A DNA stretch of 25,327 nucleotides from a virus. The stretch covers positions 1-25,327 of IMG/VR virus record IMGVR_UViG_3300025698_000051. One strand, given 5' to 3'. The notes beneath the pieces were generated by a model that was not told where the DNA came from, searched no databases, and saw only the letters and a list, made by a program, of their open reading frames with translations. Below are positions 2,697 through 19,809 of the stretch, one piece after another. The number at the start of each line of letters is the position of its first letter. Positions within the stretch are counted from its first letter, which is position 1. The translations under genes were made by a program, and so were the position numbers.

Positions 2697-5600
2697 ATGA
2701 AATATTTATCGTGTCCAGATTTCCACTACTCTCCCAAGTGGGGTGACGTTTCCGAGCTTGCAGGAAGAGCAATTAGGCAGGCAGCAATAGATAACAAGGT
2801 TGATTTCATAGCCTTCCCCGGTGATCTCTATGATGCACCGATCATGGTGACAGATAAGGGTGGCATCAATCAGCTACGAAAGATCATCAAGTCACTCTTG
2901 GAGGTCTGTCCTGTAGTCGCTATCCAAGGGACGCCAAGTCATGATGGCCCTGGATGCTATGGACCATTGCAGGACTTAGGGCTTGTGCTATTGGAGCCGG
3001 GGAAGGTGTATGGGCTACAAGATGGTAAGATATCCACAAAGTTCACTAATCCTGATGGCATCCTCTTCGGAATCCCAGAAGTAACTAAGCAGAATATCCA
3101 AGCTACCCTATCAACCTCAGCCGAGAATGCCAACGCTGAGGCTACAAAACTATTAGCAGACTATGTACTTGAGTATATCGCACCCATGCGCCTCAAGTAT
3201 AAAGATGTACCAGCAGTAGCGCTCCTGCATGGCAACGTATCTGACAGCCATCAAGATAATGAATCAGATATTATCCTCAAGGCCTCTGATATTGTGATCC
3301 ATACAGAGGACCTTCTTCCTGCTGGAGTGGACCGTTGGAGTCTAGGACATATCCATACTCCTTGGGAGTCACATATCATCAATGGTGGATACGCTGGCTT
3401 TACTGGGATTGACTCAAACCCTTGGGGGAAGCGTGGATTTGTGCCGGCAATGAATATGATAGAAGTGGGTAAGCCCTTAGTAAGGGTCCCCTACGGTACG
3501 CCAATGAGGGTGAAGATTACTGAGCTTGACGCTACTCCTGTTGATCCATCAGTTGCCTACTGGCTCGACACCAAAGACCCTACAGCTACCCTCCCCTCTG
3601 GTATCCATCCTTGGAGCCGGATTACCTACAATGAGACCAAGGAGCAGACCAGAAGAGTAACCCAAGAAGAGGCTGAATCTGCCAAGACCTTAGGCGACCT
3701 CTTGAGGCTCCTTGATCCATCCGCAACTACTGAGCAAGTAGAAGCTATCAACAGCATCCCAACATCAAGCCACAAATCTGATACCAGAGTTGACCTTGCT
3801 ATGACCTACTTAAAGGTGCAGGGCTGTACATTCTTTAGAGAGCAAACTGTCGAGTTTGACCTGAGTAATCTTTCTGAAGGAGTGACCGCAATCAAGGGTG
3901 GCAACGGTGCTGGCAAATCCAGCCTCCTATCTTTCTGCTCTCCCTATCCGCTGGTAATAGGAAAGGATACGAGTAGCGGAAGGATCTCTGCTATAAAGGA
4001 TTTCTTCTCCGGAAAGGATTCCCTCATAGAGAAGAGATTCCTAGTCAATAACCAGGAGCATATCCATCTGATCACAATCAAGGCAGCACACACGCAGAAT
4101 CCCAAGACGGAATGCTATCTCACCATTGATGGAGTACCTCAGCTTGATAAGGGTTCTTTTGATGAGATGATGACAGAGTGTGAACGGATCTATGGGCCTT
4201 ATAATGATTATCTTTTAACGTCTTTTTATGTCCAACCACTGCAGGGCAAGAGCGGCTCAAGCCTCATGAGCGCTTCTATGACTGATATAAGAAACCTTGT
4301 CCAGAATATCGCAGGGATTGACCGCTCCCAGGAGCAGAGATACTCCCTAGATACTCTTGCCAAGCACAAGGCTGAAGAGACCAGGTTAAACAACTGGATC
4401 GAGGGAGCAGGAGCATTCGCTGATGATATTGAAGAGCTTGAAGCCAAGGTGTCAGAGTCAGAGAATAGCATCAAAGAGCATGAGCAAGCTGTATCTGATA
4501 CCTTGTATCAGGGCCAGATGAACAGTAACAAGCTATCAGAGGTAAATGCTCGCAAGATAGATAGTGATACCGAACAGGTCAAGAAAGACAATAATCTCTC
4601 CAAGATATCAAAACTCAAGTTCGAGCAAGAGTCCCATAAACGGAATATAGAACAACTCAAAGAGTCTGTCCTGGAGATAGCCATCATCAAGGAGAAGCTC
4701 TCCAAGCAGGATAGGGATCAGAAGGTCCTCAGAGATATCCAATCTATTGATCATCGTAACCTTGTGGCTATGCGAGAGTTTACCGACAAGCAAGCAGATG
4801 TCAAGAGGAAAATATCTGACCTTAATAACTCTTGGGCTGATGATATCAACTTGGTAAAGAGGGGCAACACCAAGCGACAAGAGGATTATGAGAGTACCTG
4901 CAGAACCCTTACTAGTGCTATAAAATACCTTGAATCTGAAATATCTGATGCTAAAAAAAGAACCGAAAATCTCAATATTCCCTGTCCTCAGTGTGGCTAC
5001 ATTGATCCAGAGGTCAAGGCTAAGATTGAACAGCTGAATATCGACACCAAGGATAATATCAAAGAGCTTGAAGAGAAAAAACTCAAGTTAGCAAATATAA
5101 TCCAGCCAGAAGATAAACCAATGCCAACCAAGGCAGAGGAGCAGAAAGCCCTTGAGGCTACACTGCAAGGTATGGTAACTCCAACCTATGAGCCAGTAGC
5201 CGACAAGCCCAGCATCCTCTCATCCTACGATGAGGAACAGCTCAGAGCCAAGCTTGAGCAGGCCCAGGGAGCAGGTAATCAGATAGCAATCCTAGAGAGT
5301 CAGATCACCGCAACTGAGCAGGAGATAAGCCAGCTTGAGAGTCAGACATACAGCATTGATGCTACTCTGGCCGGCAAGGTATTAGAGCTGGATCAGAAGA
5401 GAGCTGCCCTACTCCAAGAGTGGCGTGAGGCAAGTGAAAAACTGTCAACAGCGAAGGCTAATCTTGCGAACCTACAAGAGCGCATAAAGACAGCTCAGTC
5501 TCAGCTTGAGGCTGTCAGCAAGGCAAGGGAGGACAGCGAGGCTGAAGGCCTACAGATAGCTCTTTGGGACTATGTATCCTTGATGCTAAGACCTGCCAAG

Positions 5601-6050
5601 ATACCGGCCTTTGAGTTGGAACTCTTGCTTGATAGCATTGACCTAGAAGCTACAAGGATCATTGATCCATACCAGGAGGGGAGGTTCAACTTCTCCACAG
5701 AGACGCAGAGCGATGGAGGAGTTGATCGCTTTGATATCATGATCCATGACAACGAGGTTGGAACCTCAAGAAGCTTCATGAAGTTCAGCCCAGGGCAAAA
5801 GGCTTTCTTCTCAGATGCATACGTCAAGGCTCTGGTAAGACAGCGCAACGAGAGGAGCAACAGAAGTTACAGCCCTGTGATCATGGATGAGTCTGATGGT
5901 CCAATCGAGCCAGGTCTTGTTGGCGCATACTATGAGATGCAAAGAAAGTATTGGAAATGCCCTGTATTGGCTGTCAGCCACAGCCCTGCAAGTCATGAGT
6001 TTATTGAGAATAGCATTGATATAGAATTATTAAAAGGAGATACGAAATGA
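2697..6050 (+). CDS. SbcD-SbcC (Mre11-Rad50) single-chain fusion nuclease/ATPase
   Basis: An 1117-residue protein joining both halves of the SbcCD complex. Residues 1 to about 260 are an SbcD/Mre11 phosphoesterase: DFH at 8-10, GDLYD at 42-46, GTPSHD at 78-83 (the usual GNH(D/E) loop is altered), then an HGN motif and GHIHTP. From about 365 an SbcC/Rad50 ATPase follows: Walker A GNGAGKSS at 402-409, a long coiled coil with zinc-hook CPQC at 763-766, signature SPGQ at 1031-1034 (in place of SGG), Walker B VIMDE at 1061-1065 and a switch His in AVSHSP. The complex trims and opens DNA ends and hairpins for recombination. The coiled coil is short compared with cellular SbcC. The frame is continuous. 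AAGGAG precedes the ATG, and the stop overlaps ssb by four bases. Confidence 0.93.
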   Translation: MKYLSCPDFHYSPKWGDVSELAGRAIRQAAIDNKVDFIAFPGDLYDAPIMVTDKGGINQLRKIIKSLLEVCPVVAIQGTPSHDGPGCYGPLQDLGLVLLEPGKVYGLQDGKISTKFTNPDGILFGIPEVTKQNIQATLSTSAENANAEATKLLADYVLEYIAPMRLKYKDVPAVALLHGNVSDSHQDNESDIILKASDIVIHTEDLLPAGVDRWSLGHIHTPWESHIINGGYAGFTGIDSNPWGKRGFVPAMNMIEVGKPLVRVPYGTPMRVKITELDATPVDPSVAYWLDTKDPTATLPSGIHPWSRITYNETKEQTRRVTQEEAESAKTLGDLLRLLDPSATTEQVEAINSIPTSSHKSDTRVDLAMTYLKVQGCTFFREQTVEFDLSNLSEGVTAIKGGNGAGKSSLLSFCSPYPLVIGKDTSSGRISAIKDFFSGKDSLIEKRFLVNNQEHIHLITIKAAHTQNPKTECYLTIDGVPQLDKGSFDEMMTECERIYGPYNDYLLTSFYVQPLQGKSGSSLMSASMTDIRNLVQNIAGIDRSQEQRYSLDTLAKHKAEETRLNNWIEGAGAFADDIEELEAKVSESENSIKEHEQAVSDTLYQGQMNSNKLSEVNARKIDSDTEQVKKDNNLSKISKLKFEQESHKRNIEQLKESVLEIAIIKEKLSKQDRDQKVLRDIQSIDHRNLVAMREFTDKQADVKRKISDLNNSWADDINLVKRGNTKRQEDYESTCRTLTSAIKYLESEISDAKKRTENLNIPCPQCGYIDPEVKAKIEQLNIDTKDNIKELEEKKLKLANIIQPEDKPMPTKAEEQKALEATLQGMVTPTYEPVADKPSILSSYDEEQLRAKLEQAQGAGNQIAILESQITATEQEISQLESQTYSIDATLAGKVLELDQKRAALLQEWREASEKLSTAKANLANLQERIKTAQSQLEAVSKAREDSEAEGLQIALWDYVSLMLRPAKIPAFELELLLDSIDLEATRIIDPYQEGRFNFSTETQSDGGVDRFDIMIHDNEVGTSRSFMKFSPGQKAFFSDAYVKALVRQRNERSNRSYSPVIMDESDGPIEPGLVGAYYEMQRKYWKCPVLAVSHSPASHEFIENSIDIELLKGDTK

Positions 6051-6433
6051 GAACAGCTTACATCACCGGCCGATTAGGCAAAGACCCTGAGACGTTCGCA
6101 CCACAAGGAAGCGAATATAGCGTATTAAAGTTCAGCGTTGCGAATAACGATGAATCGAAAAAGAACGCCGAAGGTGGTTATGATAATATAACCTCTTGGT
6201 TTGACTGTGAATTTTGGACTAAGAATCCTACCCACTGGCTACAAAAGTTAGCCAAGGGCGTTGAGGTGGCTCTTGAGTGTACTATCAAGCAGGATACATG
6301 GGAGACAGAGGGGCAGAAGCGCAGCAAGGTGAAGTTCCATGTTGTAAGATTCCCTGTGATATGCGGAGGAGCTGTTGAAGTGAAAGCTCCGGTAGCAGGG
6401 CCAGAACAATTTGATGAGGATATCCCATTCTAG
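6047..6433 (+). CDS. ssb: Single-stranded DNA-binding protein
   Basis: A 128-residue SSB. The N-terminal OB-fold (about residues 1-105) shows the usual order: TAYITGRLGKDPE, then SVLKFSVAN, then WFDCEFW, and KGVEVALECTIKQDTWE. The protein ends in DEDIPF, the acidic tip that recruits recombination and repair partners to ssDNA. It is shorter than the typical bacterial SSB because the linker is brief, as in many phages. It overlaps the fusion nuclease by ATGA, so the two are translated together, and it is followed by a terminator that ends this transcription unit. Confidence 0.92.
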   Translation: MRTAYITGRLGKDPETFAPQGSEYSVLKFSVANNDESKKNAEGGYDNITSWFDCEFWTKNPTHWLQKLAKGVEVALECTIKQDTWETEGQKRSKVKFHVVRFPVICGGAVEVKAPVAGPEQFDEDIPF

Positions 6434-8553: not shown

Positions 8554-8775
8554 TTATATGAGTAACAGAATGCAAGCCAAAGCAATTCCAAGAATGTCAG
8601 CTACCAAATCGTAAACATTATCCCGACTGAAACCCCTCTTCTTGATGTCGTATGCTTCTTTGCCTAAAGCTAACACTACAGCAAGTGGCAGATAAATAGT
8701 TGTGAGGAAGTAGCAGTAGAGGAAGTGGATGGCTTTGTCAGATGTTAGGAGTTTAAGGAGTTTGTTCGTATTCAC
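8554..8775 (-). CDS. Small phage membrane protein
   Basis: A 73-residue protein with a DKAIHF start motif, a first membrane segment (about 18-36), a GKEAYDIKKRG loop, DLVADILG and a second membrane segment to the C-terminus. The pattern DKxxHF ... GKExYD ... DxxADxxG is a recurring one in small phage and bacterial membrane proteins. The GTG start at 8775 is supported by AGGAGG 7 bases upstream and overlaps the preceding gene by 23 bases. It may act with the holin, but function is not established. Confidence 0.6.
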   Translation of the reverse strand: MNTNKLLKLLTSDKAIHFLYCYFLTTIYLPLAVVLALGKEAYDIKKRGFSRDNVYDLVADILGIALACILLLI

Positions 8776-9082
8776 GTATCAACCTCCTTGCCTCTTTTCT
8801 ATCCGCTACAAGGTTACGATATTCAACTTCTGCATCAAGCCCTAACTCTGCACACTTAGCATATACCCAATCTGTGCTGTCGAGCAGTTGATGTAGTTGA
8901 ATAAGCAAATCCTTCTCATTAAGTTGTTTGAATGTGGCGTTAGGATTTGTCGTCCTGTAGCAATCACATTCGTAAGAAGTGTCGCCATCTTCGGTTGCGG
9001 GTATCTCAACGAAATTTCCCCTGAGTTCGATGATGTTTCCCATTTCCAAGCGTTCTGTTTTATTTAATACATTTTGTTTCAT
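8753..9082 (-). CDS. Gene coupled to the RT; possible tail-fibre-assembly-like protein
   Basis: A 109-residue protein. The N-terminal half is strand-rich with an acidic loop (ATEDGDTSYECD). The C-terminal half carries LLDSTDWVYAKCAELG followed by VADRKEARRLIREYE, a pattern like the LLxxTDW ... R ... R helix pair of phage tail-fibre assembly and XkdW-like proteins. It starts by an ATGA overlap with the reverse transcriptase stop and has AAAGGAG before it, so it is cotranslated with the RT. Two roles are possible: chaperone for the diversified fibre, or an unrecognised DGR accessory factor. It does not look like Avd. Assignment tentative. Confidence 0.5.
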   Translation of the reverse strand: MKQNVLNKTERLEMGNIIELRGNFVEIPATEDGDTSYECDCYRTTNPNATFKQLNEKDLLIQLHQLLDSTDWVYAKCAELGLDAEVEYRNLVADRKEARRLIREYEQTP

Positions 9083-10173
9083 GCTATCTCCTTTAATTTT
9101 AATTTTTCTATCATACGTTGCCTAATTTGGTTTTCATAATCAGTACCATTTATAACTTCTTTAAGGTGCAAATCTTTGATTACATGTTCTATCTCTTGAT
9201 GAAAGAATAGACAATCTGAATGTTGTGCCATACCTTTATATGATAGCACACTTCTTGCTAAATGGGGGGTTGGATCTTTCTTTACTTGAGTAATCCTCCG
9301 TCTAATATTAAGATATGTTTTACCTCTTAATACTTGTTTATTCCGATATGTTTTCATACCCAACATATCTATAAACCTATTTCTGCTCCACTTGTAAATC
9401 TTTATTTTACCTTTACCACTTTCTTTAATTTCTAAACCAATAGTAGGTAGATATTCCCTAATAAAATCAGCTACTTTCTGGGCTTTTCTTTTTGTTTTAG
9501 TAAGAACTAATATATCGTCCACATAACGAATATAGAATTTTAGTTTGAACTTCTCTTTCATAATATGGTCGAGTTCGTCAAAATAAAATAAAGCCAACCA
9601 CAAGTTCAAATAACTACCGAGAGTCACTCCTACACCATTAGGTGATTCTTTATAAAGCATCTTTTCTATAAGAGATATTATTTTCTTATCCCTTATTTTT
9701 AACTTCAATTTATCGATTAGAATTGATATAGGAATGCTTGGGTAGTATTTTCGTACGTCCATTTTTAGGACATATTTTGTACCACGTTGCTGAGACCAAT
9801 GTTTAATGAGTTTGTTACCATAACTCAATCCACGGTTTGGGATATTTGCTACGTTATGTTGTATAAACGTTGCTTCAAAATGGGGCTTCATGAGAGTCAC
9901 TAAAGCCCAATGCACCATTTGGTCACGAAATGCAGGACAGGAAATATCACGCATCTTCTTAGCGTTCTTATCCCACTTTGTCATATTTCTACATAACTGG
10001 GGTTCATATGTTTCATTGCATAATTCTTCAATAAGTTTAGCTTGTGTTTCAGAGTTATTCATCTTTTGTACAGATGCTCTTTTACGTTTGCCTTTGCTTG
10101 CGTTATGCCAACAATAAGCCATGAGTTCAGGGTCAAGTAGTTTATCATAAGTGATATCTTTCCATGTTTTCAT
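9079..10173 (-). CDS. Diversity-generating retroelement reverse transcriptase
   Basis: A 364-residue RT, usual DGR size. Visible elements: RDISCPAFRDQMVHWAL (about 75-91), PNRGLSYG (112-119), motif A KMDVRKYYPSI with catalytic D139, the motif-4 region LGSYLNLWLA (185-194), and YVDD at 217-220. The hydrophobic L185 stands where processive RTs have Gln, as in DGR enzymes. However, the usual SQ of (I/V/L)GxxxSQ is N190-L191. It copies TR RNA into cDNA with errors at adenines, and the cDNA replaces VR in the fibre gene. AAAGGAT precedes the ATG. It lies 3' of the fibre gene and TR, in the same direction. The adjacent TR/VR pair makes the DGR assignment secure. Confidence 0.93.
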   Translation of the reverse strand: MKTWKDITYDKLLDPELMAYCWHNASKGKRKRASVQKMNNSETQAKLIEELCNETYEPQLCRNMTKWDKNAKKMRDISCPAFRDQMVHWALVTLMKPHFEATFIQHNVANIPNRGLSYGNKLIKHWSQQRGTKYVLKMDVRKYYPSIPISILIDKLKLKIRDKKIISLIEKMLYKESPNGVGVTLGSYLNLWLALFYFDELDHIMKEKFKLKFYIRYVDDILVLTKTKRKAQKVADFIREYLPTIGLEIKESGKGKIKIYKWSRNRFIDMLGMKTYRNKQVLRGKTYLNIRRRITQVKKDPTPHLARSVLSYKGMAQHSDCLFFHQEIEHVIKDLHLKEVINGTDYENQIRQRMIEKLKLKEIA

Positions 10174-10433
10174 ATTTTATCCTTTACAATCAACGATGTT
10201 CGCATTATTTCAGCTACCAACCATTTTTTAGTTATTGTATTTTCCAAAAGGAGGACTAAAGATATGTTAAGAAACGTAAGGATAAGGCGAGAGCCGTTGT
10301 TAATGTTCGTGTTAGTAGGAGAGTTGTTACCATTAGAATACACTAGTGAGACGTTAGTACCATTGTTCCAATTACCACCTAAGTGAAGCACTCGCTTATA
10401 CCTTTAACCCTTTTTATAATTTTATTGCTACAT
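10174..10433 (-). ncRNA. TR-containing template RNA region
   Basis: The interval between the VR-side hairpin and the RT start holds the template repeat and about 105 bases of downstream spacer. In the Bordetella phage DGR the TR plus spacer RNA is the template and priming scaffold; here the same role is inferred. The ends of the RNA are not determined. The 5' part (10398-10433) is AT-rich on the coding strand and could hold a promoter, but no convincing -35/-10 pair is seen, so processing from the fibre transcript is also possible. Confidence 0.6.
10280..10397 (-). repeat. DGR template repeat (TR)
   Basis: 118 bases matching the 3' end of the fibre gene without gaps. Read on the - strand it is rich in AAC/AAT triplets (11 Asn codons in the frame matching the fibre). 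All 17 mismatches to VR are at TR adenines (positions 10298, 10300, 10310, 10312, 10316, 10325, 10327, 10339, 10344, 10354, 10355, 10366, 10367, 10373, 10380, 10384, 10396). The - strand changes are A to T nine times, A to G six, A to C two. By my count TR has about 35 adenines here, so about half differ. Homology breaks at non-adenine mismatches at both ends (10279 and 10398). Confidence 0.97.
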
Positions 10434-10452
10434 GGGGGCTTGCACAGCCCCC
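10434..10452 (-). other. Hairpin just downstream of VR (DGR target-site candidate)
   Basis: A perfect 7-bp inverted repeat GGGGGCT / AGCCCCC with a 5-base loop, 13 bases after the fibre stop and about 21 bases beyond the 3' edge of VR. Many phage DGRs carry a hairpin or cruciform at this place that aids target recognition. No T-run follows on the - strand, so a terminator is less likely. Caveat: related GGGGGC hairpins occur elsewhere in the window without any VR. Confidence 0.65.
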
Positions 10453-10465
10453 AAACCCCTGTGAA

Positions 10466-12310
10466 CTAAGAACGGATAAGGCGAGAGCCGTAGCTAATGT
10501 TCGAGATAGAAGGAGAGTAGATACCATTAGAACACACCAGTGAGACGCCAGTACCATTGAGCCAATAACCACCAAAGCGAAGCACTCGCGTTCCAGTTCT
10601 TGCTGAATCAAAGTAATACAAATATGCACTATAGAATGTCACACTACCTGCTACAGCACCCCAGAGAATCGGTACATCAATCATACCTCCTTCTACCTCG
10701 ATGCCTTCTCTTATCTGCTGATATCCATTAGCCGCATAATCTCCTATTCCCAAGTCAACCCAGCCGTCTGCACCTCTAGGGTCTGTGATGTTATACTTTG
10801 TGGGGTCTGCACATCCGTAGTACCGCCCATCGTAACGCATGAATCCTGCGTTGAATTGCCAGACGTTACCCCACAAATCCCAGATTCCTCTGTATGCGAC
10901 GTGGCTCATATTTGCACTACTATATTGCTCTATGTACCCACTCCCATCACCAATTGTATCGAAGATGGTCTGAGGTACTGACTGACCCCATGAAACTATT
11001 GTATTACCAATTGCAATGTTGAAAACAGCACCGTCAATAGTTATTGTCTGAGTGCCATCGCCATTGTCTGTTACATCGGTAATGAGTCTGTTTTGAGCTA
11101 TGCTGTTATTTGTGTATGATGTACCAATTTGTACGGTCATGCCAACATGAAAATTAGTTAAAGTATCTGGGATGGTTATCGTGTTGCCATCAGTTGATAT
11201 TGCAACAGCTTCATAGCTAGCTCCTGAACCGTATGGCATCCCAGAGTTTATACCCTGTCCGTACATACCCTTGTGATTGAGAGAGCCACCTTCTATAGTC
11301 GATAACATAAATATAGAGTGCATGGTGTTGCTATCGTACATGCTCCACTCGCTATCACCCTGCGCGTACATGCCCGTAATAAAATTAGTGTAACTTATAT
11401 TCGTTTCTGGTGCTTCACCAACTCTTGACCTGTATTCACTACCAACTTTTGATGCTGGCATGGAAGCAATGAGTTGTTCTGCTTTCTGCTTGAAACCAAG
11501 ACGCTTTTTTCTAGAGATATACAAATATCTGTGACCACCAGAGCGATAGTCCTTGTACCAAAATTCTGGAATGCGTGTCATTAGTTCACCGTCGAAAGCA
11601 TCGTACCCTGCATCAGTCTGAAGTATTTTCACCCCAGCCACAGAGACTTTCACGTGCTTCATCTCAGACCAAGGATACACCGAGTCGAAACTTGAAGTGA
11701 TAGCTTTTGTACCATCTGGAGCAGTTACTGTCATTCCTACAGCATCAAGCAATCTGGTGTTCGCACCTGTAGTTTCGTTGATATCCAATCCGTAAACTCG
11801 TGTATCTATGAGTTCGTACAATTCCTTGGCATCATTGGCACTGGCAATTTTACCGAGTCCACCGATAAAGTCGTCTACAATGTCGTCTTTTACTGCTTTC
11901 TTCGTATCCAACTCCTCCAACGCTCCACCAATCGTAACAGCATCAATCCCACCAACAGGAGTAAATACTGCACCTTCGGAATTGTCCTTTATAGATTTGA
12001 GTACTGAGCCAGCAGTGTTTACATCAGCTTCAAGAGTTGCTATCGCATCCGCATTATCTTTGACCGTTTCGTCAGTCCAGCCTACGCCCTTGATTTCATC
12101 ATTAATGAGGTCCTGTGCATCACTGACAGGCTTATCAGCATCACTTACATTATCAACATTCCCAAGCCCCACATTAGCCTTGGTCATCAAGGTTTCCGCA
12201 GCTATCTTCTTAGCTACGCCATTCTGATCAAGCCCTATCTTTTCAGTGCCATTCTTCAATAATTCTGTTGCTTCTGTTGGATTTTCTCCAAACTTCTTAG
12301 GTGCTGTCAT
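10466..12310 (-). CDS. DGR-diversified receptor-binding tail protein (C-type-lectin fold C-terminus)
   Basis: A 614-residue protein. The N-terminal part has the tail-fibre motif NVGLGNVDNVSDADKPVSDA (about 45-64) and helical trimer-like repeats, so it probably attaches to the tail. From about residue 215 a formylglycine-generating-enzyme/C-type-lectin-like domain follows, with GIWDLWGNVWQF (about 485-496), and it is interrupted by a strand-rich insert near 375-440. The last 40 residues (about 574-614) are the VR and end FGGYWLNGTG...YGSRLIRS. This matches the variable proteins of phage and Treponema DGRs, which display variable residues on the ligand-binding face. ATG 12310 has GGAGG nearby; an in-frame TTG upstream does not. 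One base separates it from the preceding stop. Confidence 0.9.
   Translation of the reverse strand: MTAPKKFGENPTEATELLKNGTEKIGLDQNGVAKKIAAETLMTKANVGLGNVDNVSDADKPVSDAQDLINDEIKGVGWTDETVKDNADAIATLEADVNTAGSVLKSIKDNSEGAVFTPVGGIDAVTIGGALEELDTKKAVKDDIVDDFIGGLGKIASANDAKELYELIDTRVYGLDINETTGANTRLLDAVGMTVTAPDGTKAITSSFDSVYPWSEMKHVKVSVAGVKILQTDAGYDAFDGELMTRIPEFWYKDYRSGGHRYLYISRKKRLGFKQKAEQLIASMPASKVGSEYRSRVGEAPETNISYTNFITGMYAQGDSEWSMYDSNTMHSIFMLSTIEGGSLNHKGMYGQGINSGMPYGSGASYEAVAISTDGNTITIPDTLTNFHVGMTVQIGTSYTNNSIAQNRLITDVTDNGDGTQTITIDGAVFNIAIGNTIVSWGQSVPQTIFDTIGDGSGYIEQYSSANMSHVAYRGIWDLWGNVWQFNAGFMRYDGRYYGCADPTKYNITDPRGADGWVDLGIGDYAANGYQQIREGIEVEGGMIDVPILWGAVAGSVTFYSAYLYYFDSARTGTRVLRFGGYWLNGTGVSLVCSNGIYSPSISNISYGSRLIRS
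10474..10591 (-). repeat. DGR variable repeat (VR) at the 3' end of the fibre gene
   Basis: The target copy, offset 194 bases from TR. The shared 17 bases at its 3' side (10474-10490, containing GGCTCTCGCC on the - strand) are the likely initiation of mutagenic homing (IMH). The 17 nucleotide differences from TR produce 13 amino-acid changes (for example TR-encoded NWNNGTN becomes YWLNGTG) and one silent change. No stop codon arises, since AAC/AAT templates cannot give one by A substitution alone. Confidence 0.97.
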
Positions 12311-12311
12311 A

Positions 12312-12611
12312 TTAAGCCTCCACTCTTGCAAGACACTTCCATATCATGCGTTTTTGCACATATATCTTTTCGCTTACAATATAGTCAATCTCGACATCAT
12401 ACATGCCAGCCGGCACAGTAAAATCACATTGTAAGATTGCTATACCTGTCTCGCCACTTGTGGTAACATCAGCATCAATACTCTGGCTTGCATCACCAGT
12501 AGTACTGTGCAATATTAAAGCAACTCCGTTATCTCTGATATCAATAGCATTACCATCTTGAGTAATGGTCACTCTATATATCTTGCTCGCCCCTGTGTAA
12601 AATTCATACAT
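12312..12611 (-). CDS. Small beta-rich tail protein
   Basis: A 99-residue protein, mostly predicted strands: YEFYTGASKIYRVTITQDGN, then VALILHSTTGD, then a PAGMYDVEIDYIVSEK segment. This resembles small immunoglobulin-like or BppU-N-like domains that sit in baseplates and connect receptor-binding proteins. The ATG at 12611 overlaps the TAA of the preceding gene (TAATG), so it is chosen over an in-frame TTG 24 bases upstream that lacks a ribosome binding site. It lies directly upstream of the fibre gene and may be its adaptor. Function inferred from fold type and position. Confidence 0.6.
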   Translation of the reverse strand: MYEFYTGASKIYRVTITQDGNAIDIRDNGVALILHSTTGDASQSIDADVTTSGETGIAILQCDFTVPAGMYDVEIDYIVSEKIYVQKRMIWKCLARVEA

Positions 12612-12817: not shown

Positions 12818-14502
12818 TATATTATCCTCTCAATCAGCACTGCCTCAATATTCGTATACAGACTCCCTAGTGCCGGATTAACCGCTATTATCTGAGCCTT
12901 CCATGTTCCAAAGTATTCTCTACCGGGTATCATCAGCTCTACGCTGATTATATCATAGATTTGTACGCTGTACCATTGTAATCCATGAAGCTGACATTCT
13001 AACACTCTTGGTATGATAGAGAACCTATCGCCCTCATGCTCTGCCCTCTCTACGGCAAGGGCTTCTGTGAGTAAATATGTTTCTACTTCCAATGTTGGAG
13101 CCTGCCTGTAGCGCTCATAGACTGCATCGTATAAGGTATCATATGTATACGTGGAATCGGTATCATATTTTACAATCACTTTTGCTGCAAGGAGTGAAGA
13201 GTCGGAGGCTACCTTGAGTGTCAAGTTGTCCTTGATGTCATGCCAGCTTATATAATGCTGGATAGGGAGTGACCAGTCATCAATCTTGATGGTCCTCTTA
13301 CCTGTGGGATTGATCTCATATCTGAAGCCTATATTACAGCCAGACTGGATTTTCTTGATAGCTTCAAAGGTTTTCTGCTGGTCAGTGAGTGCTATGCCTA
13401 TGGGGGAGATAAGAGCCTCTGATGCCTCCCATTTGGTTGTATCATAGTTACTGCTGTTATATTCTACCCCAAGGGTCCTTGTATTGATATCCTTGATGAT
13501 ACCCAAAGCGCTTGTGTTGGGATAACCGATAAGATTGCGCACCCTTGTGGGTAGGATTGAGCCTGTATCTTCACCCAAGCCATTCCCTGGGGATCTAGCA
13601 TAAGTAGCAGATAGGACAAAGGTCCCTGTGGTAAGGTCAACACTAATAGGAGTTACATCCTGCCATCCAAAATCACCCTTGCACTCTACTATCCCGATAT
13701 CTGTGAGATATGAAGCTACCCTGAAAGTAGGAGCTACTCCCTCTGCTGTCACAGTGGCCTCAATAGATTTCACCTGTCCATATATAAGAGGGACAGGGTC
13801 TCCTCCCTCATAGAAGTCTGATATGATATTTATATTCTGGCTTTTGCGCTTGTCTTGGACAGCTATAGAGAGCTCTGCAAGGGTAAAGGTAAAGTTTTCG
13901 ATATAGAAGCTGTTCAGAGGTATAAGCTCATTCCTAAGATAATCTCCCTCATGCTCGGGTAGATGGTAGATAAGAAGATCATTCCCATACGTGTCATCAT
14001 CTATAATATCATCAAAGCTAGCATCAACATTATCCATTACAACTGATCCTGATACAAAGGCCATCTGGTCATACTGCTGGAGGTCCGCCTGCTGTGAGAG
14101 AGAAGGGATGCTCTTGATAAGGGGAAGGTAAGGAATGTCCTCTATGTAGATAAGGTCCTTGTCGGTGTAACCAAAGGACTTGCCGATAGCAACATTTTGT
14201 ATGGTAGGTATGGTATCTGGTGAGACATGGAAATAAAGGATTTGGTTTGGAAAGTCAAAGAAGAAGCTTTTTTCATCCGCTTGGCAGTCAAGGATTGAAT
14301 CTACTGAGGAGTAGTTGTCTGTGCTATTTATCACCAATGATTGGATATTGATTATCTCTTCTGAGTTGTCACCGAGCGCACCAAAGATAGTTGTCCAATA
14401 ATCTGCTGTCTGTCTAAGTGCAGGATAGCATATAAATGTAAAGGCTGAGTATGGGGTGAATGCTCTTAGGCTTTTGAAGCGGGTTATTTCGAGTATGGTC
14501 AA
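12817..14502 (-). CDS. Large tail-tip / baseplate hub-like protein
   Basis: A 561-residue protein placed after the distal tail gene and the repeat protein, where siphophages encode the hub or tail-associated protein. It is strand-rich with no membrane segment. The N-terminal part (to about 200) has a segment VSGSVVMDNVDASFDDIIDDD (about 150-170), like proteins with gp27-type or phage-tail-protein domains. The middle includes PVPLIYGQVKSIEATV (about 233-248), and the C-terminal part reads like a second beta domain. The start is TTG (14500-14502), with AGAGG about ten bases upstream and no alternative ATG nearby. Hub assignment is contextual. Confidence 0.6.
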   Translation of the reverse strand: MTILEITRFKSLRAFTPYSAFTFICYPALRQTADYWTTIFGALGDNSEEIINIQSLVINSTDNYSSVDSILDCQADEKSFFFDFPNQILYFHVSPDTIPTIQNVAIGKSFGYTDKDLIYIEDIPYLPLIKSIPSLSQQADLQQYDQMAFVSGSVVMDNVDASFDDIIDDDTYGNDLLIYHLPEHEGDYLRNELIPLNSFYIENFTFTLAELSIAVQDKRKSQNINIISDFYEGGDPVPLIYGQVKSIEATVTAEGVAPTFRVASYLTDIGIVECKGDFGWQDVTPISVDLTTGTFVLSATYARSPGNGLGEDTGSILPTRVRNLIGYPNTSALGIIKDINTRTLGVEYNSSNYDTTKWEASEALISPIGIALTDQQKTFEAIKKIQSGCNIGFRYEINPTGKRTIKIDDWSLPIQHYISWHDIKDNLTLKVASDSSLLAAKVIVKYDTDSTYTYDTLYDAVYERYRQAPTLEVETYLLTEALAVERAEHEGDRFSIIPRVLECQLHGLQWYSVQIYDIISVELMIPGREYFGTWKAQIIAVNPALGSLYTNIEAVLIERII

Positions 14503-14516
14503 TGTATTGTTACCTC

Positions 14517-15674
14517 TTATCCTATGAACTCAAGCTTGCTGTTGTGAATATATATTAAATCAGAATCAGTATCACAACTTATTAGATTTGTTCCGTCGAA
14601 TGTTAGCCCGTGTGGGTCTGGGCTCGCAAAGATAGATAATATTGTTGAAGTAACTCCTGAATGGACATATATTAAATTAGAACCAATATCACAACTTATT
14701 AGATTTGTTCCGTCGAATGTTAGCCCGTATGGGGCTATTGATGGGCTCGCAAAGCTAGAAAGAATTGTGGACGAGATACCATCATGAATATAAATCCTAT
14801 CACTATCAGCATCACAACTTATTAGATTTGTTCCATCGAATGTAAGACCGGTTGGGACTATTGATGGGCTCGCAAAGCTAGAAAGAATTGTGGACGAGAT
14901 ACCATCATGAATATAAATCCTATCACTATCAGCATCACAACTTATTAGATTTGTTCCATCGAATGTAAGACCACTTGGGTATGTAGACGGACTTGCAAAG
15001 CTAGATGATATTGTATCTGTTATTCCGTCGTAGATATATATCAAATCAGAATCAGCATCACAACTTATTAGATTTCCGTTTATACTATCATATGCTAAGC
15101 CTGTTGGCTTTGTAGACGGACCTGCAAAAAGAGTTGACATACTGCTACCCGGTAATTTATAACTCTGGAATCCATTAAATGTTGGCGAGGTCAATCCTGC
15201 AACACTAACTCCCCCCTCCCTATCCACAGTCTGAAACCCACTCCCCTGCCAGAGGTTCATAATCTTCCTCTTGGTCAGTACAGCACCAGCCTTGACAAGC
15301 TGATATGGCAATACTTGATATGATCCATTATACAGCCCATTATTAACAGCATTCCAAGCATACCCACTCAAGTCATTTATCCAAGTTGCTATAAGCGTAT
15401 CCCCTGAAGCCTCAAGCCTGATATACCAAGTCCCATCTGTTGGCGTACCACTTATCACATAATCCTCAGTGTCAACCCTGTACAGATACCCACCATGCGA
15501 TAGGTACGTACCCAAGGCCAGAGCTGGTATAGTGGTACTATTCTCCCACTCCGTCAGCGCCATACTAGGCCCTGCAAGCTGTCTTGTAAATCCTGCTATA
15601 TGTGCATTCTGAGCGTCATAATCCCCTATATTTTCCGGTGGTGTTACAAATTGTGCTACTTTACTTATACTCAT
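14517..15674 (-). CDS. Tail protein with beta-propeller-like tandem repeats
   Basis: A 385-residue protein. The first 170 residues are an unrelated strand-rich region, probably the attachment module. From about residue 185 five repeats of 39-41 residues follow, each with GLTFDGTNLISCDADSD, then (R/L)IYIHDG and FASPS. The repeat has the look of NHL or TolB-type propeller blades, which often bind carbohydrate or protein. Five blades would make a small or incomplete propeller, or a trimer could close it. Its place between distal tail and hub genes suggests an accessory host-contact protein. ATG 15674 has GGGAGG upstream. Confidence 0.65.
   Translation of the reverse strand: MSISKVAQFVTPPENIGDYDAQNAHIAGFTRQLAGPSMALTEWENSTTIPALALGTYLSHGGYLYRVDTEDYVISGTPTDGTWYIRLEASGDTLIATWINDLSGYAWNAVNNGLYNGSYQVLPYQLVKAGAVLTKRKIMNLWQGSGFQTVDREGGVSVAGLTSPTFNGFQSYKLPGSSMSTLFAGPSTKPTGLAYDSINGNLISCDADSDLIYIYDGITDTISSSFASPSTYPSGLTFDGTNLISCDADSDRIYIHDGISSTILSSFASPSIVPTGLTFDGTNLISCDADSDRIYIHDGISSTILSSFASPSIAPYGLTFDGTNLISCDIGSNLIYVHSGVTSTILSIFASPDPHGLTFDGTNLISCDTDSDLIYIHNSKLEFIG
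14526..15126 (-). repeat. Tandem repeats of about 123 bp within the tail gene
   Basis: The motif ATCACAACTTATTAGATTT (+ strand) recurs at 14571, 14688, 14811, 14934 and 15057, giving periods of 117, 123, 123 and 123 bases. Segments 14735-14849 and 14858-14972 are identical over 115 bases, pointing to a recent unit duplication. The period is in frame throughout. Confidence 0.95.
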
Positions 15675-16475: not shown

Positions 16476-16513
16476 AAGCAAAAACCTGCCTTTGTATCAA
16501 ATAATATTTTCAT
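16472..16513 (-). CDS. 13-codon mini-ORF from a duplicated start region (relay B)
   Basis: Reads MKILFDTKAGFCL. Its ATG overlaps the tape measure stop (ATGA, 16510-16513), and its TGA overlaps the start of the distal tail gene (ATGA, 16472-16475). Its first 19 bases (ATGAAAATATTATTTGATA) match the first 19 of the downstream gene with one mismatch, 38 bases apart. GAGG lies 8 bases upstream of its start. Whether it is translated is unproven; the double coupling is the argument for it. Confidence 0.5.
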   Translation of the reverse strand: MKILFDTKAGFCL

Positions 16514-19500
16514 CTTGTCAACCTCACTCGACCGTCATTGAATTCTTTCGCTATTACAGTTGCAAGTTCTTTCCCATCAACTTCGATAGTGGTTTTTATA
16601 TTGATATTTCTATTCCCTCCAAGCGCATCATTAATTCTCTCTGCAATCTTATCAGCAAAGTCATTCATGAATGGCATACCACTCTCACCTGCATTGAATG
16701 ATATCTCTGGGAATCCATTCTCGGCTTGTGTTGTCTGAACTCCACCTGCCTGTGGTAGTATAACTCCACCTGTGGCTAGTTTTGGTGCTGGTGGTTCTGA
16801 GGCTATGACTGCAGCAACTTGCAATCCACCAATTGTCGTCGCAAGCGCTCCCATAGCAAGTCCTAACGGTAAGAATGGTTTTGTCATAAATCCATTCAAT
16901 ATTGCTTGTGCTGCGCTTGCGGTTGCTGATGCGATATTCAATTTCCAGGATATCATAGCTGATTCATATTCAAGTTTTGCCTTCTTCTTAGCATACTTCT
17001 CTTCAATAATAGCCTTTTCAACTATAGCCTGTTTCTCTGCTTCATCCTTATCAAGAGTAGATTGCAGTTCATCCTTATCATTTTTGAGCTTATTAGCTGA
17101 GGCGATATCACCGGCATTTGTTGCAGCATCAATCCTATCTTGGATAGCCTTTAGTTGTTTCTTGTTGCTATCCTGTACATCTTCAAGCTCAGTCTGTGCT
17201 TTCTCTGTAGCACTCTCTTCGGCTAGACCAGCCGCCTCAAGCTCTGCCCTCATAGCCGCATCAATGCCATCAATCTTGTTATCATAGATGACAGAGAAGA
17301 GATTGCTCATAGCACCAAGAGCGCTACCTATTTCTGATATAACAGCCTTGGCATTATCAGCAAATGTCTCCCACTTCGTCTTATCTTTAAGAGCGTCGTA
17401 ATATTCGTTGATAGCAATTATCAGATCTTCTGCATCGTGAATGGCCATTTTTGTAAAATCGTGAGAAGCAAGCTCCCTTCTTTTTTCTATATCTATCATT
17501 TCGAGAGATGTCTTACCAATATCTTCAAGTTTATTCTGATATCCCTCAAGGCTAGAAGCGAGGGATGAATTGGCTTGTGCTAGATCATCTGTAGAATCCG
17601 TTGCATTATCTATAGATTCTACTTCATCATCAAAAGACCCTCCTAACGCTATAACCTTTGCTTTCAAATCTTGAACTTCTCTAGATGCAGGGATAAACCC
17701 TTGTGATATGAGGTCTTGGATAGCACCTTTATAAGCAAGTATCTTCTGTGATGTAGCATCATAACTATCAGCATGAGTAGCTTCGATTGCATTTATTTCT
17801 CTAATTCTAGTAGTTAAATCATCGAGCGTCCCTTTTGCTGATTCTTGTGCTTCTGTACTTTTCTTTGTGGCTTCTGTGCCATCTTCTGTAGCCTTTGTAT
17901 TCTTACCAAGAAGCTCATTTTCTATTTCTAGAAGTCCAGCAAGTACCTTTCGCTTTGTCGATTCATTAGTAATTGCATTAGCTGTTGCCCTAATTGTATC
18001 AATATTATCAAGTGTAATATCATTGTATTGACTTAAGAACTTTGATGCATCTTCCGTTGCTTTATTCTCTGCTTTAACAGCATCGACATTATCTAATACT
18101 ACTTGTTTCAATTCAGGATATGCTTGTAAAATCTGCTCTGTTGCTAATTCATTATCAATGTAACTTTGAGTAAGGGTATTTACAAATTGGGCTTCTGTGG
18201 ATTCTGCTTGGGTTAGTTTTGATGTGGCTTCGTTCAGGTCTTCTGCTGCCTTTTTCCTTTTCCATAACTTCCCTTCGTATACAGAGGACGCAGTTACCAA
18301 TTTCCCATTTACTCGAATCATTTCTTTTTGAGATAATATACTTCTGCGTTCAGCTTGAGTTTTTATGTTCAACTCATCAGCAGTATGGCCAGTTCCCTCT
18401 GCCAAATCAGTTAATTCTAAGTCATACTCTTCAATCAATTTTGTTGATTTCTCTATTGTGCTACCATAATCATCAATCTGCTTATTACTCTCGCTATAAG
18501 CTTTTCCAAGTTGTTGTAAAGCTAAATCTCTAGTTGCTTTTGATTGGCTCACCATCGCTTGAGTTAACGCATCGGTCTTTCCAGCAGATTCATCTAATAT
18601 TGTATTATACTCTTTGTTCGCTTGTTTAAGGTCGTCAAGCTTTCCTTCAAGTGTGCCTGCGACAATGCCACTCCCTGACAGCTTTGTGATAAATGTCGTA
18701 ACAGCATCAATAGCATTTCTTATTGCTGGCGTGAATCCTGTTATAAATTTTATCTTAGCGCTCTCTGTTGCACTCTTGAGCCTATCCATTGATCCTTTCA
18801 ATGTATCATTCTGGATTGCATACATTTCAGCTGCCGCATTAGTATCAGTTATAGCTTCGGTATAATCCTCTATTCCCTCTCTACCTGCACTCATAAGAGC
18901 CAGTATCTGGCCTCCTGCTTCCTGTCCAAAGGCTCCCATTACCTCACCTGTTGATAGGCCGGCTTCTGAGAGCGTGCCAAATACATTGGCAAGGGAATTT
19001 GATGATGTGTCAATATCTTCAAAAGATAGCCCAAGAGCAACTAGCTTTTTTGTAGTTGGATCTGTCTCTGCTGCGAGCTTGCCTAATATTGCTTTTAATG
19101 CAGTACCTGCCTGCTCCCCACGATATCCTGCATCATAGAGCGCTTCAAGCGATCCTACGGTCTCCTCAAGGCTTACTCCAAGAGCTGAGGCAACAGGGCC
19201 GACCTGCGTCATGGAGCTTGTCAGCTTACCCATGTTTGCCATCGAGTTGCCGATAGCGGCCGCAAAGACGTTGGAGACCCTAGTAGATTCTGATGCGTCA
19301 AGATTGTATTGCCTAAGAGTGGCCACCATTGATGCGCTTGTTGTAGCGAGGTCGCTCTGGGTTGATCCTGCAAGCATGAGCACACCATCAAGAGCTTTCA
19401 CACTCTCTGTTGCGCTCATACCAGCAGAGGCCAAACTATATAAAGCGTCTGCTGCCTGGCTTGCTGTAAATCTTGTTGTCTCACCAGCTTCCATTGCAGC

Positions 19501-19809
19501 ATTATTTAATGCTTGAAATTCAGCCTCAGTACTTTTTGAAACTGATGCAACATTGGCCATGCTCTGTTCAAACGTCCCTGCGATATCGATAGCACCCTTG
19601 ATAGCCATCGTTATTGCAGCAAAGGCGGCTACTCCTGCGAGTTTGGCTATATTAAAGCCTTTAGAGAGTGACTTACTAGAGGTATTTGATACCTCTTTAC
19701 TCTTATTTCCAATCTGGTCAAGTTTTGTTTTTACCGATTGAACATCGCCATTGAGCTTGTCGAGTTTTATACGTACTTCAGAATATATTGAACCAGCATC
19801 AATTGCCAT
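16510..19809 (-). CDS. Tail tape measure protein
   Basis: A 1099-residue protein, the longest in the late block. The N-terminal region begins with a coiled coil (DKLNGDVQSVKTKLDQIGNK) and a hydrophobic segment (AGVAAFAAITMAIKGAI). The conserved TP901-type tape measure core follows (FEQSMANVASVSKSTEAEF ... LYSLASAGMSA ... LVALGLSFEDI, about 78-330). A long helical region comes next, with a charged coiled coil at about 870-970 and a hydrophobic stretch near 985-1030 (PFLPLGLAMGALATTIGGLQ). Such proteins set tail length and are ejected into the host envelope. By the usual rule of about 1.5 Angstrom per residue the tail would be near 160 nm. The start overlaps the chaperone stop (TAATG). Confidence 0.92.
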   Translation of the reverse strand: MAIDAGSIYSEVRIKLDKLNGDVQSVKTKLDQIGNKSKEVSNTSSKSLSKGFNIAKLAGVAAFAAITMAIKGAIDIAGTFEQSMANVASVSKSTEAEFQALNNAAMEAGETTRFTASQAADALYSLASAGMSATESVKALDGVLMLAGSTQSDLATTSASMVATLRQYNLDASESTRVSNVFAAAIGNSMANMGKLTSSMTQVGPVASALGVSLEETVGSLEALYDAGYRGEQAGTALKAILGKLAAETDPTTKKLVALGLSFEDIDTSSNSLANVFGTLSEAGLSTGEVMGAFGQEAGGQILALMSAGREGIEDYTEAITDTNAAAEMYAIQNDTLKGSMDRLKSATESAKIKFITGFTPAIRNAIDAVTTFITKLSGSGIVAGTLEGKLDDLKQANKEYNTILDESAGKTDALTQAMVSQSKATRDLALQQLGKAYSESNKQIDDYGSTIEKSTKLIEEYDLELTDLAEGTGHTADELNIKTQAERRSILSQKEMIRVNGKLVTASSVYEGKLWKRKKAAEDLNEATSKLTQAESTEAQFVNTLTQSYIDNELATEQILQAYPELKQVVLDNVDAVKAENKATEDASKFLSQYNDITLDNIDTIRATANAITNESTKRKVLAGLLEIENELLGKNTKATEDGTEATKKSTEAQESAKGTLDDLTTRIREINAIEATHADSYDATSQKILAYKGAIQDLISQGFIPASREVQDLKAKVIALGGSFDDEVESIDNATDSTDDLAQANSSLASSLEGYQNKLEDIGKTSLEMIDIEKRRELASHDFTKMAIHDAEDLIIAINEYYDALKDKTKWETFADNAKAVISEIGSALGAMSNLFSVIYDNKIDGIDAAMRAELEAAGLAEESATEKAQTELEDVQDSNKKQLKAIQDRIDAATNAGDIASANKLKNDKDELQSTLDKDEAEKQAIVEKAIIEEKYAKKKAKLEYESAMISWKLNIASATASAAQAILNGFMTKPFLPLGLAMGALATTIGGLQVAAVIASEPPAPKLATGGVILPQAGGVQTTQAENGFPEISFNAGESGMPFMNDFADKIAERINDALGGNRNINIKTTIEVDGKELATVIAKEFNDGRVRLTR

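Follow-up and report, generated by a model that had tools for sequence, protein, structure and literature searches.

A compact tailed-phage diversity-generating retroelement without an Avd gene and with an NL dipeptide in motif 4 of its reverse transcriptase

The locus described here raises the question of whether two similar repeats, a tail gene and an adjacent reverse transcriptase (RT) gene form a diversity-generating retroelement (DGR), and whether such an element has worked recently with an RT that departs from the usual motif 4. The locus lies in the IMG/VR virus record IMGVR_UViG_3300025698_000051; the window is the whole stretch of DNA that was analysed, namely positions 1 to 25,327 of that record (25,327 nucleotides). 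The answer favoured here, with a probability of roughly 95%, is an intact, recently active tailed-phage DGR. It has a compact order, in which a target gene ending in the variable repeat (VR) is followed by the template repeat (TR) and the RT, and its cassette contains no Avd gene. The coordinates of all parts are collected in Table 1.

The starting point is the pattern of differences between the repeats. TR and VR align without gaps over 118 bp, with 17 mismatches (nine A>T, six A>G and two A>C). These fall on 17 of the 35 adenines in TR and on none of the 83 remaining positions; the probability that all 17 would land on A by chance is p = 3.2e-11. An earlier sequence-only reading of the locus had given the same alignment and the same adenine-only differences, and the recount agrees with it. 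The 13 amino-acid changes that it listed become 14, plus one silent change (CTA>CTG), spread over 15 codons; AAC and AAT codons host eight of the 14. The repeat found by blastn extends over 116 bp with 16 differences, which leaves the first two of the 118 bases uncertain; the outermost mismatch (K>T) may belong to the flank. A published criterion for DGRs is that at least 75% of TR/VR differences lie at TR adenines (PMC8144416); in the window the proportion is 17/17. By codon position, 17 of the TR adenines are at position 1, 14 at position 2 and four at position 3. Twenty TR codons are able to vary, and a stop can be reached from one alone, an AAG at the edge. This placement of adenines, with the near-absence of stop-prone codons, is the usual DGR design.

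Read along the minus strand, the cassette consists of the target gene with VR at its 3' end, a hairpin, TR, a spacer, the RT gene and a small open reading frame (ORF), with gaps of 76 bp between VR and TR and of 106 bp between TR and RT. TR and VR are identical over the 18 bp past the last mutated adenine; from its position, we infer that this stretch is the initiation of mutagenic homology (IMH) and its TR counterpart (IMH*). The hairpin, or cruciform, is found 20 bp past VR, immediately beyond the target ORF. It belongs to a conserved set: a fully paired stem of 7 bp or longer, with a loop of 3-6 nt and no more than 60 bp past VR, occurs in 43 of 65 cassettes, compared with 0.5 expected from shuffles, and the conserved stems mostly read (T)GGGGG...CCCCC(A). 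In the BPP-1 DGR, the equivalent stem-loop strongly boosts retrohoming (PMC12875486). The hairpin of the window was also considered as a terminator; this was ruled out, as it lacks a T-run and the terminator scan was negative. The promoter and terminator scan found nothing exceeding chance near the cassette. The position of the spacer matches that of the BPP-1 spacer, which serves in RT recruitment and cDNA priming (PMC12875486), and by analogy it is likely to be the site of both processes here.

The RT that adjoins the repeats is of the DGR clade. It matches PF00078 (E = 2e-18) and phrog_1423 (E = 1e-74), and its best match in the PDB is 8ub7 (E = 8e-18), the chain sequence of which is that of BPP-1 Brt. 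The curated NCBIfam cut-offs for other RT types are not reached: group_II_RT_mat scores 112 bits against 300, Drt3a 62 against 200, and retron 50 against 235. In a quick tree, of which only the split between DGR and group II RTs is relied on, the enzyme is placed among DGR RTs and separate from two group II intron RTs, with a support of 100. It forms a long branch, and its sole close kin come from its own population. A scan of IMG/VR with a profile built from a two-sequence RT alignment yielded 80 loci with related RTs; an RT scan of the genome contigs dataset found no relatives. The compact VR-TR-RT order, in a cassette without Avd, recurs with about 55 of the roughly 80 related viral RTs; there, VR lies some 420-310 and TR some 220-110 bases ahead of the RT ORF.

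These observations bear on two other explanations. If the repeats were an ordinary duplication with chance differences at A, or had undergone DNA damage or editing aimed at A with no RT involved, the existence of the repeat would be explained, and nothing further; given the statistics of the pattern, the adjacent DGR RT and the conservation of hairpin and architecture, this is highly improbable. VR might also be diversified in trans by another RT, belonging to a second DGR in the phage or its host, with the local RT as a bystander. This would be compatible with general DGR mechanics, and the 25 kb of virus covered leave room for a second RT elsewhere. However, the position and spacing of the local RT are conserved in the approximately 55 relatives, and a single RT was detected within the window, which makes a bystander role very unlikely.

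The target of diversification is a tail protein. It matches phrog_5302 (tail protein; E = 1.5e-29, residues 99-619), and a profile of 33 target homologues matches PDB 5vf4 (TaqVP) with E = 4e-8, variable region included. An AlphaFold2 model, built from the 33-row homologue alignment, has a predicted local distance difference test (pLDDT) score of 81 and a predicted template-modelling score of 0.86. In Foldseek, chains of 5vf4 are the only significant PDB matches of this model (E = 2.6e-10), and most of its structural matches among viruses are to tail collar fibre proteins. Over parts of the C-terminal 100 residues the pLDDT drops to 45-67; for VR itself, the fold assignment therefore depends in part on the profile match. 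Pfam has no match for the target or its homologues. Taken together, profile and model predict that the C-terminal part of the target is an FGE-type C-type-lectin domain that ends in VR, placing VR within a coding region of C-type-lectin fold. The earlier description of a tail-fibre target with a C-type-lectin-like C-terminus is borne out by these matches, and the coordinates it gave for the RT and the target are right. The DGR targets of about 30 relatives are homologous to that of the window.

Table 1. Parts of the DGR cassette and the adjoining small ORF (window positions).
Feature	Position	Strand	Remarks
Target tail fibre/collar protein	10466-12310	minus	614 aa from ATG at 12310; TTG-start ORF begins at 12331
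VR	10474-10591	minus	approximately the last 39 target codons, save two codons preceding the stop
IMH-like invariant 3' end of VR	10474-10491	minus	ends ...GGCTCTCGCCTTATCC; IMH* counterpart at TR 10280-10297
Hairpin/cruciform	10433-10453	minus	TGGGGGCT-GTGCA-AGCCCCCA; 8-bp stem, 5-nt loop; DNA fold
TR	10280-10397	minus	between target gene and RT; 35 adenines
TR-RT spacer	10174-10279	minus	106 bp
DGR RT	9079-10173	minus	364 aa; catalytic YVDD (D219, D220); motif 4 LGSYLNL, residues 185-191
Small ORF	8753-9082	minus	109 aa; overlaps RT stop by 4 bp

Whether the element has been active recently can be judged from three further IMG/VR contigs that contain the same virus (L002, L003 and L004). TR is identical in all four, and L002 and L003 also have the VR of the window. 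Contig L004 starts inside VR; over the 33 bp that can be read, it departs from TR five times, in each case (5/5) at an adenine. Compared with the VR of the window, L004 differs at 7 of these 33 positions, versus about 8 in 1,700 elsewhere (p = 2.6e-9). Its RT is 99% identical to that of the window and also has NL. A different VR over an unchanged TR in this near-identical contig indicates, on sequence comparison, recent DGR activity; the pair shows natural turnover of VR against a fixed template. Variation of VR with a constant TR in the population is thus seen between L004 and the window, on one partial VR. The expectation that relatives would share TR while their VRs diverge was followed up in part: next to L004, three family pairs with identical TRs (L016/L017, L086/L089 and L041/L049) have 20/20, 20/20 and 16/16 of their VR differences at TR adenines. 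A scan for the flank preceding VR, which sought more VR variants, returned known contigs only.

Differences of another kind are found outside VR. In L003, clustered substitutions and small indels relative to window positions 10886-11002 alter about 12 target residues, several of which match the contig L005; the cluster resembles the outcome of a homologous exchange with some related virus. L002, which is otherwise identical to the window, has dense patches at 13321-13447 (22 substitutions) and 11252-11275 (five substitutions). Their distribution suggests short recombination tracts in tail genes, not DGR activity.

Several points weigh against an intact and recently active DGR. Motif 4 of DGR RTs is usually (I/V/L)GxxxSQ; in the RT of the window, LG is retained and SQ is replaced by NL. 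SQ is present in 82 of the 85 related RTs of the alignment, a count that leaves out the window's own population (the others have SV, CQ and SA); in a stricter count of 81 relatives, S is kept in 80/81 and Q in 79/81. The variation of VR in the population consists of the one partial 33-bp VR of L004, those of L002 and L003 being identical to that of the window. Avd is essential in BPP-1 (PMC12875486), yet the cassette has no Avd gene. Finally, the window is a 25-kb fragment of a viral genome.

Some of these points would suit a recently dead DGR, whose RT would have been inactivated or changed by the NL replacement in motif 4 and whose VR would merely preserve the trace of earlier activity. In its favour are the near-invariance of SQ in relatives, further departures at neighbouring motif-4 positions (P184T, N195L and L198F) and the presence of one and the same VR in three of four contigs. 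Against this, the RT is full length with an intact YVDD in all four contigs, and L004, which has NL too, has a different VR over an unchanged TR. Loss of SQ is also not without precedent: in DiGReF, 15 of 155 DGRs have non-SQ dipeptides (SP, SH, NQ, PA, AQ and VQ; NL is unlisted) and keep their adenine exchanges (PMC3521204), so that the missing SQ is not decisive against DGR membership. In the SQ-deviant relatives L079 (SV), L088 (CQ) and L013 (SA), 20/20, 12/13 and 9/10 of the TR/VR differences are at adenines. A dead element is therefore considered unlikely, and an intact, recently active DGR is preferred.

The NL motif is the only feature of this DGR that is likely to interest a specialist, and the loss of SQ is its only unusual point. 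In the RT of BPP-1 (bRT), R74 and I181 matter for adenine selectivity; R75 and L185 of the window RT align with these residues. It is reasonably probable that the window RT works in nature as an adenine-selective DGR enzyme without either of the SQ residues. If this is true, adenine selectivity does not come from the SQ dipeptide, and other residues, namely R75 and L185, may be enough to provide it; the enzyme would also be independent of Avd. An NL enzyme with adenine-only errors offers a comparison for the residues that set adenine selectivity.

The element had previously been called complete. This holds for TR, VR, RT, target and hairpin, but not for Avd: no match to it was found in Pfam, PHROGs or NCBIfam among the ORFs searched near the cassette, and the BPP-1-type arrangement with avd between VR and RT is absent. 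The same DGR account was sound in its anatomy, and overlooked both the lack of Avd and the missing SQ. The 109-aa ORF beyond the RT has no Pfam, PHROG or NCBIfam match and is, by eye, unlike the ACA1 Avd; it is probably a tail gene of the same operon and is not recognisable as Avd. In the approximately 55 compact relatives, the VR/TR spacing leaves no space for an Avd gene. Their shared order, together with the hairpin in 43 of the 65 cassettes, makes the window element an ordinary Avd-less phage DGR. Such a compact cassette is a small system for asking whether Avd is needed.

RT homology, TR/VR anatomy, adenine specificity, the conserved hairpin and the fold of the variable protein each agree with the identification as a DGR, and together with the second VR over an unchanged TR they provide its direct support. 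From them, we infer a mechanism via cDNA, its priming in the spacer, and an effect on receptor binding and host range. TR would be transcribed, and the RT would make a cDNA from it that contains errors opposite adenines; this mutated copy would then take the place of VR at the 3' terminus of the tail-fibre gene, with IMH/IMH* (the shared 3' end) and the hairpin past VR marking the target site. The outcome would be a C-type-lectin binding surface that is variable at about 20 residues, corresponding to some 4e18 protein variants. A change of host range via tail-fibre variation, which the earlier reading called probable, is plausible by homology to tail collar fibres and by the precedent of BPP-1, a weaker footing than that reading gave it.

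Elsewhere in the window, a single 1,117-aa ORF at 2697-6050 (plus strand) combines an N-terminal part that is nuclease-like by eye with an SbcC/Rad50-like part (phrog_77), and is directly followed by a single-stranded DNA-binding protein (6047-6433, plus). A VRR-NUC protein is encoded near the left end (429-854, plus). In the tail region, the protein at 14517-15674 (minus) contains near-identical repeats (DGTNLISCDADSDRIYIHDGISSTILSSFASPS) and has no Pfam match; it is probably a beta-propeller. A tape-measure domain is encoded at 16510-19809 (minus), and its best phage match is vir515, assigned to Methanosarcinales (44%). Similar domains occur widely, both in phages and in the genomes of many bacterial phyla, and this match therefore does not fix the host of the virus.

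Among known systems, the tropism-switching DGR of Bordetella phage BPP-1 (mtd-avd-TR-brt) is a close counterpart. Both have a tail receptor-binding gene that carries VR at its 3' end, a TR upstream of the RT on the same strand, variation restricted to adenines and a hairpin past VR; bRT is the closest solved relative of the window RT. In contrast, BPP-1 has avd between mtd and TR, where the window has a VR-TR gap of 76 bp without Avd, and motif 4 is IGSLTSQ in bRT versus LGSYLNL in the window. TaqVP of Thermus aquaticus (PDB 5vf4), an FGE-type C-type-lectin DGR variable protein (PMC6328139), shares this domain and a variable region at its extreme C-terminus with the target. The two proteins are 13% identical; TaqVP is bacterial and single-domain, whereas the target, a phage tail fibre, has an additional N-terminal part.

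The DGR of the archaeal virus ANMV-1 (adtA) has the same target-TR-RT order with short spacing, and 17/17 adenine differences in its best block (PMC4372165), but its target has no sequence homology to that of the window (blastp E = 5.5). A small ORF between its VR and RT has been labelled Avd (PMC4372165). A candidate second adenine-only pair in ANMV-1 (L008; 980-1095 and 5909-6024) was rejected: the two stretches are an almost exact duplication, and their apparent A differences gather at one edge.

Further counterparts are the compact viral DGRs without Avd in, for example, Butyrivibrio phage Arawn, Lactobacillus phage LBR48, Methanomassiliicoccales virus vir215 and the IMG/VR contigs L016-L092; the record of LBR48 begins too near the RT for its VR/TR pair to be found. 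Their RTs are 25-38% identical to that of the window, and most share its VR/TR spacing and have a G-rich hairpin past VR; they differ in that nearly all have SQ in motif 4. About 31,000 DGR RTs have been catalogued from IMG metagenomes (PMC8144416). As a DGR, the element is one more phage example in this very large catalogue, and of a well-known kind of system.

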